A DNA stretch of 21,425 bases from a virus: positions 1 through 21,425 of IMG/VR virus record IMGVR_UViG_3300004807_000152; one strand, given 5' to 3'. Each line of letters starts with the position of its first letter. Position 1 is the first letter of the stretch. Shown here in pieces: positions 3,629 to 15,774 of this stretch. Under the pieces are notes generated by a model. The model saw only the letters and a list, made by a program, of their open reading frames with translations. It was not told the origin of the DNA and did not search any database. A program made the translations under genes and the position numbers.

Positions 3629-4531
3629 TTAATAGGAACCGTAGATTCCCAATGGATCTGACCAGCCAAACGAATAACGCTCGCGTGATTTATAACGCAC
3701 GTTCCCTGTATCGAAGTCACCATCCATTGAATTTTGCAACGGTGTACGCTCAAAATGCTTGAGGCCGTTAGGCACATCAGTAGTCAAGAACCATGCATTG
3801 GTAGCGGTCAAGAAGTGGTTAACTGTGTAACCTTCTGGAACGGAACCGTTGTTCTTGATAGCGTTGATGTCGTTGTTGTTTGTACCAACGCGCAATTCTG
3901 TGTCGAGCAAACGTGTTGCAACGAACATTAGTGCTGGTGGAACAATCAACTTCTTGGGGCGTGCGGCGATCAAAAGACCACGCTCGTCTGTCCAAGCGGC
4001 GATTTGAATGACGGCATTCTCAAGAGAAGTCTCGTTCAAGTCAGCAGCTGTCGAAGGAGTGTTGGCGTTTGTGCCACCGTTCACCAAGGGGTGAGCAGAG
4101 TTCAACAAAGATACACCGTCGCCACCAACGTATTGAGCGTTGTAAGCGTTGTTCAAAACTGCGGCAGCTTTGACTTGCTTGGTGTATGCCATAGCACGGG
4201 CCAAACCTTTGGTGTAGCGAGCAGACAAGCTGTCGTACAAGTTATCTTCAATCGCTTCTTCAGTGATTGAGAAACCCAAAGCAATGGTTTCGTGGTTATA
4301 GCGAGCTGTAAATGCCTCTTGCGCATTGTCGTAGCTGATGGCTGTGCCCTCGGCCTTGACTGGTGCGGCTGAGAAGCCTGACAGTTTTGTCTCTTCTTCA
4401 AAGCTACGCTCTGATTTCTCAGTTTCGTAGATCTCTTTGTGCTCTTCGCCGTAGCGGGCGTACTCTAGACCGAACAATGCGTTCAAACCAGGGAGCAACT
4501 CTTTAAGCAGTTGTGCGCGTGAAATAGCCAT
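3629..4531 (-). CDS. Major capsid protein (Mu gpT-like, HK97 fold expected)
   Basis: The product is 300 residues long, usual for this type. It begins MAISRAQLLKELLPGLNALF and continues with a GLEYARYGEEHKEIYET segment. In the middle it has an 'ALGFSITEEAIEDNLYDSLS' region like Mu-type major head subunits and other HK97-fold capsid proteins. The C-terminus (YKSRERYSFGWSDPLGIYGS) is the typical end of these proteins. No protease-cleaved delta domain is obvious, which fits the separate scaffold-like gene upstream. The ATG follows AAGGAG. It forms a short unit with the 289-residue decoration-like gene upstream (15-bp gap) and ends at a strong terminator. I assign it from sequence style and position; no alignment was run. 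Confidence 0.88.
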   Translation of the reverse strand: MAISRAQLLKELLPGLNALFGLEYARYGEEHKEIYETEKSERSFEEETKLSGFSAAPVKAEGTAISYDNAQEAFTARYNHETIALGFSITEEAIEDNLYDSLSARYTKGLARAMAYTKQVKAAAVLNNAYNAQYVGGDGVSLLNSAHPLVNGGTNANTPSTAADLNETSLENAVIQIAAWTDERGLLIAARPKKLIVPPALMFVATRLLDTELRVGTNNNDINAIKNNGSVPEGYTVNHFLTATNAWFLTTDVPNGLKHFERTPLQNSMDGDFDTGNVRYKSRERYSFGWSDPLGIYGSY

Positions 4532-11818: not shown

Positions 11819-12540
11819 AGAGTGACGGGGGGGGTTTCCAGGTCAACAAGTTGGGGAGGGTCAATGGTATTTTCTAAGGATTGAGTGAGTGGAATAGTAT
11901 GCGTAGGATCCCCCGCCGCCTCGCTCGCGCTCGCGGGGGGTGGGGCGTGGGTGGGGTCGAGCGCCTCTGAAATCTCCGCCAGTAGACTCGCGCCTCCGGT
12001 ACGCGCCGGCTTTGCGCTCACATCAACGACCGCCTTGATGCGCTCGAGTAGCTGGGCTTTGATGTCTCCGCTCTTTTGATGAATCACTGTGGTGGTCTTG
12101 CGCTCTTCGAAGGCGCCCACTTCGTAGAGTTTGCCAATCAACTCGAGCGCCTTCATTCGCTGGGCTGGTGGGAAGTCCTCATCGATGGAATGCTTGACTA
12201 GCTGGTGGATTAGCAAAGCCTTCAGTTGAACGGGGGTTCGCAGTTTCTCCGCCTCTATTGCCAGCCTGTACGCCTCTATTTCTTTTGACACTCTTGAGTC
12301 CCTCGCCAGCATATAAGGCGCATTGTTCAGTGTATGCTCGCTTTGGGCGTTATACGTTGTCTTGTATGCCTCTCTCTTACTCATGACACCTTGTGCTACC
12401 TTATGCGCGTACTCTCTCTGTTTACTGGTGAGCGGTTGTTTTACACCTAATATGCTCTCGATGGGTGTGTTGTCTAGTGTATCTTTGATTTGCGCCCTCG
12501 ATAATCTTTTGACTGGCGCGCGCTTACTTGTTTCCGGCAT
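11815..12540 (-). CDS. terS: Terminase small subunit (putative)
   Basis: The 241-residue product has a basic N-terminus and then a helix-turn-helix-type segment (about 38-90): 'LTSKQREYAHKVAQGVMSKR', 'EAYKTTYNAQSEHTLNNAPY' and 'MLARDSRVSKEIEAYR'. This plan is typical of DNA-recognition domains in phage small terminases. A helical middle (about 95-175) could form the oligomer ring, and a low-complexity Pro/Ala-rich C-terminus follows. Small terminases bind the packaging site and present DNA to TerL; position at the head of the packaging operon supports this. The C-terminal coding stretch is unusually GC-rich (about 11900-11960) compared with its neighbours. A predicted promoter lies upstream. 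A general regulator is an alternative. Confidence 0.7.
   Translation of the reverse strand: MPETSKRAPVKRLSRAQIKDTLDNTPIESILGVKQPLTSKQREYAHKVAQGVMSKREAYKTTYNAQSEHTLNNAPYMLARDSRVSKEIEAYRLAIEAEKLRTPVQLKALLIHQLVKHSIDEDFPPAQRMKALELIGKLYEVGAFEERKTTTVIHQKSGDIKAQLLERIKAVVDVSAKPARTGGASLLAEISEALDPTHAPPPASASEAAGDPTHTIPLTQSLENTIDPPQLVDLETPPVTL
11844..11853. repeat. CAACAAGTTG repeat copy (end of terS)
   Basis: This copy sits in the extended context GGTCAACAAGTTGGGG, identical over 16 bases to the complement of the copy at the convergent junction (17292-17301). It is in the terS coding end (Gln-Leu-Val codons), about 25 bases upstream of the predicted promoter for the LexA-like gene. Confidence 0.45.
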
Positions 12541-12553
12541 GGTGTGTGACCCC

Positions 12554-12563
12554 CAACTTGTTG
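12554..12563. repeat. CAACTTGTTG operator-like repeat upstream of terS
   Basis: This intergenic copy (context CCCCAACTTGTTGG) overlaps or abuts the start point expected from the leftward promoter at 12573-12601, and is 13 bases upstream of the terS ATG. Such a position would block transcription or initiation if a protein bound. Function is inferred. Confidence 0.5.
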
Positions 12564-12572
12564 GATTGCATG

Positions 12573-12601
12573 AGTATAAACCGAAACGTCTGAACCCACA
12601 A
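12573..12601 (-). promoter_or_regulatory. Predicted leftward promoter for terS
   Basis: On the minus strand a -10 TATACT (12573-12578, 5 of 6 consensus bases) is 17 bases from a weak -35 TTGTGG (12596-12601). The poor -35 suggests dependence on an activator or low basal activity. The operator-like repeat lies immediately downstream. Confidence 0.45.
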
Positions 12602-12735
12602 TCACCCCCAAAATCAAATAGACTCCCTTATAAATCAACAACTTACAAGCGCTGGCACGATTTTTTCCACATATAAGGTATGGGGTATCAAAAACAGAGC
12701 CTCATATTTTCAACAACAACTAAGGAAACAACACT

Positions 12736-13047
12736 ATGTATTCACAATTCAAAACAATCGATAACTTAATTGAATATCACTCTACCAGTGAGCAAACCAT
12801 GTTCCTTTGCGACTTGACCGGCGTCAGCGTCAACGATCGCTGTTTCGACTCACTGCAACACTGGTTCGACATTAACGACCCATTTCACACCGCCTCGAGG
12901 GTCATGCGCGAATCCGGTGGATCGTTTGCCGGTGCTATTGGCGACGCCTACCAATGCGCCGACTCTCACAACCGCTGGTTGTTGATTCAGGCCTTCCAAG
13001 ACCTATTCAAGCGCTTTATGCCCACCAGTGTGACTGATGAGGTCTGA
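12736..13047 (+). CDS. Small phage protein of unknown function (103 aa), first gene of ribozyme operon
   Basis: A soluble 103-residue protein starting behind AAGGAAA. Its C-terminal half ('SGGSFAGAIGDAYQCADSHN' followed by RWLLIQAFQDLFKRF) matches a small-protein pattern I have seen repeatedly in phages, without a known function. Its last codons (ACT GAT GAG GTC TGA) are also the core and stem II of the first hammerhead ribozyme, and the stop codon lies in ribozyme loop II. The 3' end of this gene is therefore under a double constraint. Confidence 0.8.
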   Translation: MYSQFKTIDNLIEYHSTSEQTMFLCDLTGVSVNDRCFDSLQHWFDINDPFHTASRVMRESGGSFAGAIGDAYQCADSHNRWLLIQAFQDLFKRFMPTSVTDEV

Positions 13048-13079
13048 TTGACCGAAACCGGCGAGAGCCGGTCTCACAC
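13028..13079 (+). ncRNA. Type I hammerhead ribozyme 1
   Basis: Stem I GUGUGA (13028-13033) pairs with UCACAC (13074-13079). The core CUGAUGA is at 13034-13040. Stem II GGUC/GACC (13041-13044, 13050-13053) has loop UGAUU. The invariant GAA is at 13054-13056. Stem III A-CCGGC/GCCGG-U (13057-13062, 13067-13072) is closed by a GAGA (GNRA) tetraloop. The cleavage-site nucleotide is C13073. Every conserved hammerhead nucleotide is present. Cleavage would release a 23-base leader before the gene at 13097. The 5' half overlaps the end of the upstream gene. Confidence 0.95.
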
Positions 13080-13096
13080 AACTACTAAGGAAACCA

Positions 13097-13321
13097 ATGA
13101 AAACCGTTCAATTAAAAATATATCAGCCCTATGGTGGGCGCGGATACTGTGTTGATCTTTTCTACCGCGGTCGACTCATTACCGGCTTTATGTCCAATGA
13201 TTTGGTCGAGGCGCGCGCCAATGCGTTGACTTACGCCAAGAACCGCGGTTTCACCCATGCAGAATTCAGATGTGAGGGTTTGCCCTTGCCAGTACTGCCA
13301 AGCATAACTGATGAGTCCTGA
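13097..13321 (+). CDS. Small phage protein of unknown function (74 aa)
   Basis: A 74-residue, beta-leaning protein (MKTVQLKIYQPYGGRGYCVD ... ITGFMSNDLVEARANALTYA). The layout of short strands followed by an 'EARANALTYAKNRGF' helix resembles small beta-alpha phage accessory proteins, but no family is recognised. It begins behind AAGGAAA in the leader released by ribozyme 1. It ends ...ACT GAT GAG TCC TGA, giving C-terminal TDES encoded by ribozyme 2, with the stop codon in loop II. Confidence 0.75.
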   Translation: MKTVQLKIYQPYGGRGYCVDLFYRGRLITGFMSNDLVEARANALTYAKNRGFTHAEFRCEGLPLPVLPSITDES

Positions 13322-13353
13322 TTGGACGAAACGCCCGAAAGGGCGTCTTATGC
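13302..13353 (+). ncRNA. Type I hammerhead ribozyme 2
   Basis: Stem I GCAUAA (13302-13307) pairs with UUAUGC (13348-13353). The core CUGAUGA is at 13308-13314. Stem II GUCC/GGAC (13315-13318, 13324-13327) has loop UGAUU. GAA is at 13328-13330. Stem III A-CGCCC/GGGCG-U (13331-13336, 13341-13346) is closed by a GAAA (GNRA) tetraloop. The cleavage nucleotide is C13347. All three stems differ in sequence from ribozyme 1 yet keep pairing. Cleavage leaves a 26-base leader before the ATG at 13374. Confidence 0.95.
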
Positions 13354-13373
13354 AACTAACCAAGGAAACAAAA

Positions 13374-13607
13374 ATGAACAATGTAATCGTAAACTTCGAA
13401 TCATGCGAACTCAACAACTCCTATCAAATTGTTGATGACATGGACGAATATGGATCGCTGATTTATTCCATTTGGATTTCAACAGGCCCAATCACCGGAT
13501 ATTACCTCAAAGACCTCAACAACGAAGAGTGCCACTTCAATACCATCGTAGAAGCCATGAAAGCATTGGTCGAACTGGTGGAGGAATACGAGCCCCAAGT
13601 AGCATAA
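13374..13607 (+). CDS. Small acidic phage protein of unknown function (77 aa)
   Basis: I chose the ATG at 13374 because it follows AAGGAAACAAAA in the ribozyme leader; an in-frame ATG at 13311 would lie inside ribozyme 2. The product is acidic, begins MNNVIVNFESCELNNSYQIV, and ends in a helix (VEAMKALVELVEEYEPQVA). No family is recognised. Its TAA stop is the last three bases of the 5' strand of ribozyme 3 stem I, so here only that strand is shared with coding. Confidence 0.75.
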   Translation: MNNVIVNFESCELNNSYQIVDDMDEYGSLIYSIWISTGPITGYYLKDLNNEECHFNTIVEAMKALVELVEEYEPQVA

Positions 13608-13654
13608 CTGACGAGCCCTAATGGGCGAAACTGGCACTTGTGCCAGTCTTATGC
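13602..13654 (+). ncRNA. Type I hammerhead ribozyme 3 (variant CUGACGA core)
   Basis: Stem I GCAUAA (13602-13607) pairs with UUAUGC (13649-13654). The core is CUGACGA (13608-13614); the U-to-C change falls at position 7, the one core position known to tolerate any base. Stem II GCCC/GGGC (13615-13618, 13623-13626) has loop UAAU. GAA is at 13627-13629. Stem III A-CUGGCA/UGCCAG-U (13630-13636, 13641-13647) is one pair longer and has a CUUG loop instead of GNRA. The cleavage nucleotide is C13648. The leader to the ATG at 13676 would be 27 bases. Confidence 0.93.
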
Positions 13655-13675
13655 AACTACTAAGGAAACAAAACC

Positions 13676-13852
13676 ATGGTTATCGCTTACCACGCAAAAC
13701 ATGAGCGCCACGGCTGGCGCGAGATATGTCGCCACCCTATCGATTGGGACGGCTGGCACGATTTCGACCGCTCCATGATCGACGAATTAATCAAGGGCGG
13801 GTCGCACGTTGTAACGTGCGGGTGGAATATGTACCAACTAATTGAGGGTTAA
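13676..13852 (+). CDS. Small phage protein of unknown function (58 aa)
   Basis: Begins behind AAGGAAACAAAACC in the leader of ribozyme 3. The 58 residues (MVIAYHAKHERHGWREICRH ... MYQLIEG) are rich in His and Trp, with an 'HPIDWDGWHDFDRSMIDELI' segment. No family is recognised. It ends three bases before the gp88-like gene, so the two are likely co-translated. An 8+2+8 inverted repeat lies inside its coding end. I accept it on its ribosome binding site, spacing and operon fit. Confidence 0.7.
   Translation: MVIAYHAKHERHGWREICRHPIDWDGWHDFDRSMIDELIKGGSHVVTCGWNMYQLIEG
13803..13820. repeat. Perfect 8+2+8 inverted repeat inside the 58-aa gene
   Basis: CGCACGTT, GT, AACGTGCG. The two-base centre is too tight for a full-length RNA hairpin (the stem would lose pairs near the loop). 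The symmetry looks more like a protein-binding site or a coincidence of codons (Ser-His-Val-Val-Thr-Cys). Confidence 0.5.
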
Positions 13853-13855
13853 GCC

Positions 13856-14503
13856 ATGCGAGTAATTATGTTGAAAAAAGAGGCGAGCGCGCTCACTGGT
13901 GGGCTCACCGAAACCTCGAAGATGCCATGCAAGTCTTACAGTCTACCGACCGAGGCGTGCGCGACCGGTTTCAAAATGGCTCAAATTGAGGGATCGATCT
14001 GTTTTTACTGCTACGCTAATTCCGGCTTCTACCAACTTTATCAGAACACCATTAAACCCGCCCAATTTGCTAGATTAGACTCAATCAATGATCCTCACTG
14101 GGTGGACGCGATGGTGACTCTAATCGGTTCGGATCAGTACTTTAGATGGCACGATTCCGGCGACCTTCAGGGGCTTGAACACTTTAAAAAGATCGTAGAA
14201 ATCGCACAATTGACGCCGAAAACAAAACACTGGCTTCCAACGCGCGAGTACTCGATCATCAAAGACTTTATCTCAGCCGGTGGAGTAATCCCCAAAAACT
14301 TGATTGTCCGGCTCTCCGGTATGTATCCCGACAAGGCCGTGAAGGTACCCAAGAGCCTCGAAGGCGTGCGAGGCGTGACAACGTCCAACGTCCACACTAA
14401 AAAGCCTCTAGGGCTCGCCTGTAAAGCCCCCAGCCAAGCCGGCGAGTGTCGCGACTGTCGCGCTTGCTGGACGAATAAAACTGTATCTTACTTAATGCAC
14501 TAA
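13856..14503 (+). CDS. Gp88-like Cys-rich phage protein
   Basis: A 215-residue protein with the pattern I associate with the mycobacteriophage 'gene product 88' family: 'SKMPCKSYSLPTEACATGFK' then IEGSICFYCYANSGFY (Cys 25, 35, 49, 52), a central RWHDSGD motif (about 97-103), and a C-terminal cluster CKAPSQAGECRDCRACW (Cys 189, 198, 201, 204). Eight ordered cysteines suggest bound metal or an iron-sulphur cluster. The biochemical activity is not known to me. It follows the 58-residue gene by three bases and has no ribozyme of its own, sitting in the middle of the longest ribozyme-bounded segment. It is the only gene of the rightward operon I can place in a family. Confidence 0.72.
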   Translation: MRVIMLKKEASALTGGLTETSKMPCKSYSLPTEACATGFKMAQIEGSICFYCYANSGFYQLYQNTIKPAQFARLDSINDPHWVDAMVTLIGSDQYFRWHDSGDLQGLEHFKKIVEIAQLTPKTKHWLPTREYSIIKDFISAGGVIPKNLIVRLSGMYPDKAVKVPKSLEGVRGVTTSNVHTKKPLGLACKAPSQAGECRDCRACWTNKTVSYLMH

Positions 14504-14513
14504 AAGGGAAATC

Positions 14514-14681
14514 ATGAAGAATTTAACCAAAAAAGAACTAATCGCCATCATGAAAATAGCAAGTGTCGCGCTTGAGCACGTTGCCAGCGAGCAAATAATT
14601 GCACGCGAGCTTGACTTGACTGAGCCCGAGATTTCCCGAATTTACGCGATCATTCAAAAAAGCATGACTGATGAGGCCTGA
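14514..14681 (+). CDS. Small helix-turn-helix-like protein (55 aa)
   Basis: Starts at an ATG behind AAGGGAA. The 55 residues are almost all helical and include 'SEQIIARELDLTEPEISRIY', which has the spacing of a helix-turn-helix (helix, LDL turn, recognition helix). A small DNA-binding regulator is therefore plausible; this is a pattern call only. It ends ATG ACT GAT GAG GCC TGA: the last codons form the 5' half of ribozyme 4, giving C-terminal TDEA, with the stop codon in loop II. Confidence 0.7.
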   Translation: MKNLTKKELIAIMKIASVALEHVASEQIIARELDLTEPEISRIYAIIQKSMTDEA

Positions 14682-14713
14682 GAGGCCGAAACCCTCGAGA
14701 GGGGGTCTCATGC
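14662..14713 (+). ncRNA. Type I hammerhead ribozyme 4
   Basis: Stem I GCAUGA (14662-14667) pairs with UCAUGC (14708-14713). The core CUGAUGA is at 14668-14674. Stem II GGCC/GGCC (14675-14678, 14684-14687) has loop UGAGA. GAA is at 14688-14690. Stem III A-CCCUC/GGGGG-U (14691-14696, 14701-14706) includes one U-G wobble and has a GAGA tetraloop. The cleavage nucleotide is C14707. The leader to the ATG at 14730 would be 22 bases. Confidence 0.94.
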
Positions 14714-14729
14714 AACTACAAGGGAAATT

Positions 14730-14897
14730 ATGAAATATACAGAGTTTGACTACATACAAGCCGGTTATCTTTTTGAGACAAACCGCATTAAACTGGCGCG
14801 CTTTCAACGAATGCTTGCGCGCGAGTATCAGGAACACAAAAACAAGGCCGTGTTTCTTTTTAACCGCGGTCGATTGGAGGCGCGCTCATGTATCTAG
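14730..14897 (+). CDS. Small basic phage protein of unknown function (55 aa)
   Basis: Begins behind AAGGGAA in the leader of ribozyme 4. The 55 residues (MKYTEFDYIQAGYLFETNRI ... NRGRLEARSCI) are basic and helix-prone, with a 'LARFQRMLAREYQEHKNK' segment. No family is recognised. Its end overlaps the next gene by 10 bases and carries that gene's GGAGG ribosome binding site. Confidence 0.65.
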   Translation: MKYTEFDYIQAGYLFETNRIKLARFQRMLAREYQEHKNKAVFLFNRGRLEARSCI

Positions 14898-15070
14898 TTT
14901 TTAACCACAATTCTCGCTTGTTGGGCGAGTTTAAGACAATGCACAGGGCACAAGAAGAGGCCATGACCTACATGGGCATGACCGGAAACCCAGCTTACAT
15001 CAAGCCGGTTAACCTCTTGAACACGCTCGAGCGCGAATATTACGATCAATTTTTGGAGATACACGAATGA
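14888..15070 (+). CDS. Small phage protein of unknown function (60 aa)
   Basis: A 60-residue protein (MYLVFNHNSRLLGEFKTMHR ... YYDQFLEIHE) behind GGAGG. A short strand followed by an 'AQEEAMTYMGMTGNPAYIKP' region suggests a compact beta-alpha fold. No family is recognised. The ATG overlaps the end of the previous gene, and its own stop overlaps the next start by four bases (ATGA). Confidence 0.7.
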   Translation: MYLVFNHNSRLLGEFKTMHRAQEEAMTYMGMTGNPAYIKPVNLLNTLEREYYDQFLEIHE

Positions 15071-15300
15071 CAACTATAGCAACAAAATACAACTGGTTAC
15101 TGGTGGACAAGGATGGCGTGGCAGTCCCCAAGGGCGCGATCATCAAAACCCGCAACGGCGAAGAGTTCGAGCTCACTGGGGGGAGACCCCCGCACAATGA
15201 CGGCTCAACCGGTCGCGTATGGGTTAAGCCCGTGGGCGAACCCGAAACCACGCAAGAGCTCTACCCGACAGTTTTTGATCTGAAATGGGAAATAGTCTAA
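15067..15300 (+). CDS. Small phage protein of unknown function (77 aa), beta-rich
   Basis: A 77-residue beta-leaning protein (MTTIATKYNWLLVDKDGVAV then PKGAIIKTRNGEEFELTGGR). The 'GAIIKTRNGEEFELTGGRPP' and 'GSTGRVWVKP' segments recur in small phage proteins of unknown function. It is translationally coupled to the previous gene by an ATGA overlap. Its TAA ends exactly one base before ribozyme 5 begins, so here gene and ribozyme do not overlap. Confidence 0.75.
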   Translation: MTTIATKYNWLLVDKDGVAVPKGAIIKTRNGEEFELTGGRPPHNDGSTGRVWVKPVGEPETTQELYPTVFDLKWEIV

Positions 15301-15352
15301 GCGCAACTGATGAGCCCTGACTGGGCGAAACCCGCGCGAGCGGGTCTTGTGC
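15301..15352 (+). ncRNA. Type I hammerhead ribozyme 5
   Basis: Stem I GCGCAA (15301-15306) pairs with UUGUGC (15347-15352), with one G-U wobble. The core CUGAUGA is at 15307-15313. Stem II GCCC/GGGC (15314-15317, 15323-15326) has loop UGACU. GAA is at 15327-15329. Stem III A-CCCGC/GCGGG-U (15330-15335, 15340-15345) is closed by a GCGA (GNRA) tetraloop. The cleavage nucleotide is C15346. Cleavage leaves a 24-base leader containing AGGAGG before the ATG at 15371. It is the last ribozyme of the array. Confidence 0.95.
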
Positions 15353-15370
15353 AACTACAGGAGGCCAAAA

Positions 15371-15589
15371 ATGGCACGATTAATTAAGACTGAGAAACAA
15401 TGGGTTATCCGTGATGAATGGTGCGAGGACGATATAACAGACCAGTGCGAACAGATTGGCGAGGAGCTCACCCTAGAAGAAACCCGCAAAGTGTTGGAGA
15501 TCATCGTTAAATCACACGATGCTGAAATTGGCATTAACTGGAATTCTATAAATTCTGCAATCGATGACGTGGTGGGGGCGAGAAAATGA
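15371..15589 (+). CDS. Small acidic phage protein of unknown function (72 aa)
   Basis: Starts at 15371 behind AGGAGG in the leader of ribozyme 5; an in-frame upstream ATG at 15347 lies on the ribozyme's cleaved strand and is unlikely. The product (MARLIKTEKQWVIRDEWCED ... AIDDVVGARK) is acidic, with an 'EELTLEETRKVLEIIVKSHD' helix. No family is recognised. It overlaps the next gene by four bases (ATGA). Confidence 0.75.
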   Translation: MARLIKTEKQWVIRDEWCEDDITDQCEQIGEELTLEETRKVLEIIVKSHDAEIGINWNSINSAIDDVVGARK

Positions 15590-15774
15590 ACACACTCACA
15601 CTCATTCAGGAGCTCTACTTTGACGTGTGCGATCTGTCCTATGGGCAATCGTACCAGTCACTGGGATACAAGAACAAAATTGAATTTTTAGCAGAGTTTA
15701 AGAGAAAACTCGAAATCATCGAGCAAGATTACCAAACAACACGAGGCCAAAATCATGACACTATCACCAACTGA
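15586..15774 (+). CDS. Small helical phage protein of unknown function (62 aa)
   Basis: A 62-residue helical protein (MNTLTLIQELYFDVCDLSYG ... KIEFLAEFKRKLEIIEQDYQ). ATGA overlap with the previous gene, and a 20-base overlap with the next, indicate translational coupling. No family is recognised. Confidence 0.65.
   Translation: MNTLTLIQELYFDVCDLSYGQSYQSLGYKNKIEFLAEFKRKLEIIEQDYQTTRGQNHDTITN

Follow-up and report, generated by a model that had tools for sequence, protein, structure and literature searches.

The window analysed here, a virus record of 21,425 bases, carries on its + strand between 12.7 and 15.6 kb small genes that are separated by five hammerhead ribozymes (HHRs), and some of these genes end inside the ribozyme that follows them, which raises the question of whether the overlap of stop codon and ribozyme is a regulatory device or has another origin. 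Among named phages, the closest matches to the terminase of the window were those of 023Pt_psg01 (62% identity) and Pelagibacter phage HTVC027P (55%). The answer that we consider likely is that the five are ordinary self-cleaving type I hammerheads that act as intercistronic mRNA processing sites and keep each stop codon; hundreds of other phages also place an HHR at the stop of the preceding gene, probably so that the cut never removes the stop signal.

The anatomy of the five ribozymes could be read directly. With a strict finder, for which H17, all three stems (I, II and III) and the invariant core are obligatory, the window gave five type I HHRs and no more, all on the + strand and lying between genes: R1 (13028..13079; C3, the first base of the core, at 13034, predicted cut 13073^13074), R2 (13302..13353; C3 13308, predicted cut 13347^13348), R3 (13602..13654; C3 13608, predicted cut 13648^13649), R4 (14662..14713; C3 14668, predicted cut 14707^14708) and R5 (15301..15352; C3 15307, predicted cut 15346^15347). 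All five carry the core C3 U4 G5 A6 N7 G8 A9, G12 A13 A14 and A15.1-U16.1, with C at the cleavage-site position H17, and the three-way hammerhead junction was the MFE and the centroid fold in 5/5 (z -2.9 to -4.9), with three helices around the core and stem I open to the transcript in each. Compensatory changes that keep the pairing were seen in stems II and III of R1 in three relatives. The best family matches were Rfam Hammerhead_1 (RF00163) and Hammerhead_HH9 (RF02275), which have the same core, three stems and type I topology; however, the window HHRs differ from these families in an open 6-bp stem I with flanking unpaired A's and no visible closed loop I, and 0/5 reached the gathering score in cmscan (R2 30.0 and R3 27.2 bits against 34; R5 23.3 and R1 20.9 bits, both with HH9, against 52), R4 not being reported at all.

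Scores below gathering would agree with inactive, chance hammerhead-like sequences at gene ends. This reading is already refuted by sequence comparison, and we give it practically no weight: in the first 1.9 Mb of loci, the strict finder returned 212 HHRs with the real core but 0 with six mutated cores, which places hammerhead identity far beyond chance, and the 6-bp stem I was formed in 341/412 related HHRs without being required, with several pair types seen at each of its positions. The base before this stem (13027, 13301, 13601, 14661 and 15300 in the window) was A in 83% of viral HHRs among the matches listed. This conserved A at -7 commonly faces an A after the stem I 3' strand (A.A in 280/412 HHRs), and the A.A beside stem I together with a U-N-A loop II suggests a tertiary contact formed without a closed loop I.

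Stop positions were counted relative to C3, so that +1 is the core's own UGA and +11 is loop II. The genes at 12736-13047, 13097-13321 and 14514-14681 end on the + strand with TGA stops at 13045..13047, 13319..13321 and 14679..14681, in loop II of R1, R2 and R4, respectively (all +11). Their proteins end in ...TDEV*, ...TDES* and ...TDEA*, the stop codon making up the first three loop II bases, and we confirmed from frames and positions the original prediction that the core is read as Thr-Asp-Glu with a loop II UGA stop in these three ribozymes. Its placement of the other two stops was also correct: the gene at 13374-13607 ends with a TAA at 13605..13607 (+ strand) within the 5' strand of R3 stem I (-3), and the gene at 15067-15300 with a TAA at 15298..15300 (+ strand) just before stem I of R5 (-9), R5 lying beyond the interval 13028-14681 of that prediction. 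An A before C3 makes the conserved CUGAUGAG readable only as ACU-GAU-GAG in that frame, so TDE is not independent evidence, and a shared protein motif was rejected because the core forces these residues in one frame. Three of the five window stops in loop II are weakly above the ~21% expected for a random frame, in a pattern that was noticed post hoc.

Conservation of the overlap, which the prediction would lead one to expect, was found in part. The loop II stop of R1 was kept in three relatives with 74-82% protein identity, in which stem II changed from GGTC/GACC to GGCT/AGCC with pairing kept and the last residue went from V to A; because stem II covaries while changing the last residue, it is the RNA that is conserved. 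The R4 and R5 placement differed between orthologues, however. The R4 ribozyme follows the GP88-family gene directly in three relatives (L063, L242 and L280), and that gene stops there at -8 or -9, whereas in the window (14480-14760) a 55-residue gene with its stop in loop II lies between the GP88-family gene and R4; the presence of this gene in the window only argues that genes are exchanged next to ribozymes. The R5 stop was found at -9, -9 and -8 in close relatives and at +11 in two distant homologues. Stop placement is labile between orthologues, though not random. As a side observation, the product of 13856-14503 matches Pfam GP88 (PF17338, E 1.2e-21), and its relatives, most of which have no HHR beside them, were common in the fetched contigs.

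Genes between ribozymes also differ among close relatives, and R2 and R3 (13302-13657) have an identical stem I (GCATAA/TTATGC) and similar leaders, so that homologous recombination could swap the gene that they enclose. For prophage hammerheads, too, the flanked genes are described as not constant (PMC3088659). These points are consistent with HHRs being mainly short homologous segments for swapping phage gene cassettes, RNA cleavage being secondary, but recombination alone would call for neither the intact core, stems and H17 nor the divergence of stems under preserved pairing, and we regard such a role as very unlikely.

Another proposed origin is a passive overlap, in which gene ends received HHR modules by insertion or recombination and each gene simply extends until the ribozyme sequence offers a stop in its frame. 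Such an origin would fit the window R4, which follows a gene missing at that place in three relatives. It would also fit R2, since relatives more than 90% identical to its upstream protein over residues 1-55 had another C-terminus and carried no HHR at that place. A further fitting case is L191, where a distant homologue of the protein upstream of R1 is without an HHR and ends about seven residues earlier. What this origin predicts about reading frames was compared with the distribution of stops across viral HHRs.

Relatives collected by pattern scans and a terminase search yielded at least 353 non-redundant HHRs, at least 332 of them viral including the window, and the analysed set comprised at least 305 non-redundant viral HHRs with an identifiable coding upstream ORF. 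Some scan patterns fixed outer stem II bases and left loop II free, and the viral sample is thus partly stem II-selected; upstream genes in metagenomic contigs were called in this analysis by a codon score whose training set was the same loci, and de-duplication was by k-mers, a simple procedure without a tree that takes related phages as independent. Among the matches listed, the stop position in 305 viral HHRs was sharply clustered, with a median of -8 (interquartile range -12 to -3) and peaks of 46 at +1, 43 at -8, 40 at -3, 30 at -9 and 18 at +11, and the stop overlapped the HHR in 169 cases (55%). The upstream frame was closed before the predicted cut in 301/305 of the matches listed, and in the other 4/305 the genes appear to read through. 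In the 25 HHRs of the window and of loci found by terminase search only, the stop lay inside the ribozyme (-3, +1 or +11) in 17 and in loop II in 7. A scan of genome contigs gave 118 stretches with only 21 non-redundant HHRs meeting structural criteria among the matches listed, so that most of these stretches are pattern matches only; the 20 genomic HHRs for which an upstream gene was called showed, again among the matches listed, a similar spread of stop positions.

When a random-frame null was compared with the 203 genes still open at -9 among the matches listed, stops past the cut made up 1% instead of 22%, those in stem II or loop II 11% instead of 21%, and core stops 23% against 24%. Loop II is therefore not favoured, and the avoided outcome is running past the cut. 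Among the matches listed, the stem I codon at -3 was a stop in 40/42 genes reading it and in 81/263 (31%) otherwise (p 4e-16), and the loop II triplet was a stop in 17/22 genes reading it and in 118/250 (47%) otherwise (p 0.006), in tests that compare classes of the same sequences and with p-values that ignore remaining relatedness. Core stops at the chance level are as a passive origin would have them, but that origin predicts ~22% of frames past the cut, and it does not agree with the stem I codon being a stop so much more often in the genes that need it. Pure passive insertion is thus largely refuted by the lack of read-through, insertion followed by filtering is compatible with the data, and we hold a passive origin to be improbable.

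These numbers also separate the loop from its use. Loop II was mostly U-N-A whether or not it served as stop, and since a stop triplet is present in nearly half of the HHRs whose gene skips it, the U-N-A loop is structural and was co-opted as stop; the idea of a purpose-made loop II UGA was rejected on this ground. A reading of the loop II overlap as a selected device, which the original prediction would imply, was not supported, as the overlap is at or below chance, the triplet is common where it is unread, and the R4 and R5 placement varies between orthologues. Stops in relatives were clustered and not randomly placed relative to the core, yet this clustering was not tied to loop II. Gaps were short in gene pairs without an HHR as well; terminator-like hairpins in the same loci, however, overlapped the stop in only 5/225 cases, most beginning well after it, as against 169/305 HHRs among the matches listed. 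Compact genomes therefore contribute to the overlap but do not alone explain it, and compactness as its sole cause was rejected.

An alternative explanation is that cleavage is gated by termination, with a ribosome at the stop holding stem I and/or the core single-stranded so that cutting awaits, or is tuned by, upstream translation. With a terminating-ribosome footprint assumed to extend from stop-15 to stop+12, stem I 5' strands were touched in 262/305 and cores in 231/305 of the HHRs among the matches listed, which bears out the earlier claim that a ribosome terminating at the stop would cover ribozyme sequence, and an overlap with the stop is far commoner for HHRs than for terminator-like hairpins. 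Ribosome shielding is physically reasonable, and on this model it would apply to most phage HHRs, R3 and R5 included. The proposal that R1, R2 and R4 form a natural comparison series with R3 and R5 is weakened for this reason, because stem I would also be blocked with a ribosome at the stop of R3 or R5, leaving no clean contrast in the window. Phage HHRs might even be termination-gated in general: because nearly all of them sit on the upstream stop, terminating ribosomes would keep stem I open, and the polycistronic RNA would stay joined under heavy upstream translation and be cut as ribosome traffic thins. However, a translation-gated ribozyme would be expected to have its stop in the core or loop II above chance and conserved there, and across the viral HHRs this was not found: stem II/loop II stops fell below the random frame and core stops were at chance, as given above for the matches listed, and the R4 and R5 stops shift between orthologues. 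Stop retention and compact packing, moreover, predict the same stop distribution. We consider gating unlikely for the window, and its extension to phage HHRs at large equally doubtful.

Processing that keeps the stop, the explanation that we prefer and the simplest one, would work through a module ordered as upstream stop codon, HHR, a leader of ~20-30 nt with a ribosome-binding site, and the next ATG. After stem I of R1, the leader of the next gene occupies 13080..13096 (+ strand; AACTACTAAGGAAACCA) and is followed by the ATG at 13097; similar leaders follow R2-R5, and for viral HHRs among the matches listed the median distance from cut to start was 26 nt. Cutting would free an upstream mRNA with its own stop and a structured 3' end (the stem III hairpin and a 2',3'-cyclic phosphate), and the 5'-OH end of the downstream mRNA would be fixed, a short leader following it. 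Each gene would have to finish before the cut, because ribosomes would otherwise arrive at the cut end of an RNA that has no stop codon. Two things would bring stop and ribozyme to overlap, the packing of the module against the gene end and a structure that itself provides stop triplets, namely those using the A at -7 (TAA/TGA/TAG, at the stem I edge), the UAA of stem I, the core's UGA and a loop II U(G/A)A. Selection would retain combinations of frame and ribozyme that close the gene before the cut. What the sequences show is the anatomy of the modules, where the stops fall, closure before the predicted cut and lability among orthologues; that the RNA is cleaved in infected cells, and that retaining the stop is beneficial, we infer. 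RiboJ-type insulators in synthetic biology likewise place a hammerhead ahead of a gene, so that cutting leaves a uniform 5' leader, but they are engineered, placed after a promoter and not fused to an upstream stop codon.

Promoter-like matches in 12500-15700 were no more frequent than in shuffles, and internal promoters were rejected on this basis. The leader CAACAACTAAGGAAAC at 12710-12735, ahead of the first gene, resembles the post-ribozyme leaders and has no ribozyme. Use of the core AUG as the start of the next gene was also rejected: R1, R4 and R5 are without a joined open frame, R3 has ACG, and only R2 has such a frame (13311-13607), which joins the next gene to give 98 aa instead of 77 and would be expressible only from uncleaved RNA.

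Tandem HHRs are known in prophages of Agrobacterium, Azorhizobium and Clostridium scindens, where tandem phage HHRs were shown to cut in vitro and the Agrobacterium ones also in E. coli (Perreault et al. 2011, PMC3088659). As in the window, several of those HHRs flank single genes or short blocks, and processing of a long phage transcript was proposed; a relation to stop codons is not described in that part of the source, from whose text the term 'stop codon' is absent (PMC3088659). We found no description of a stop-codon link of phage HHRs in the open papers searched. Theta ribozymes of gut phages resemble phage HHRs in being small, self-cleaving and common in phage genomes, but they have an HDV-like fold and lie mostly next to tRNAs, unlike the HHRs here; 493/526 of their non-tRNA matches were non-coding, and intragenic matches served as the false-positive estimate (PMC10879173). 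In contrast, 55% of the phage HHRs among the matches listed here overlap the end of an ORF, and discarding ORF-overlapping ribozymes as false positives would lose about half of these sampled HHRs. Closure of the upstream frame before the cut is a quantitative rule across hundreds of phages, which points to mRNA processing as a safeguard of translation termination and turns interference between ribosome and ribozyme into a question that can be tested concretely.

Named phages were searched with the strict finder as well. No HHR was found by it in the stretches searched of 023Pt_psg01, PaP3, Bcep176, HTVC027P and DLP_6; core-variant HHRs in PaP3 and Bcep176 are nevertheless reported in PMC3088659. 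The cultured Agrobacterium phage OLIVR1 (L602) has one HHR at 3966, not adjacent to an annotated upstream gene, and neither this HHR nor that of the cultured Pelagibacter phage HTVC142P (L605) is annotated as such in GenBank records. HTVC142P was the only cultured phage found with both an independent annotation and a closely adjacent stop among the matches listed: its annotated gp3 (451-666) ends with a TAA at -5, in stem I of an HHR with C3 at 669.
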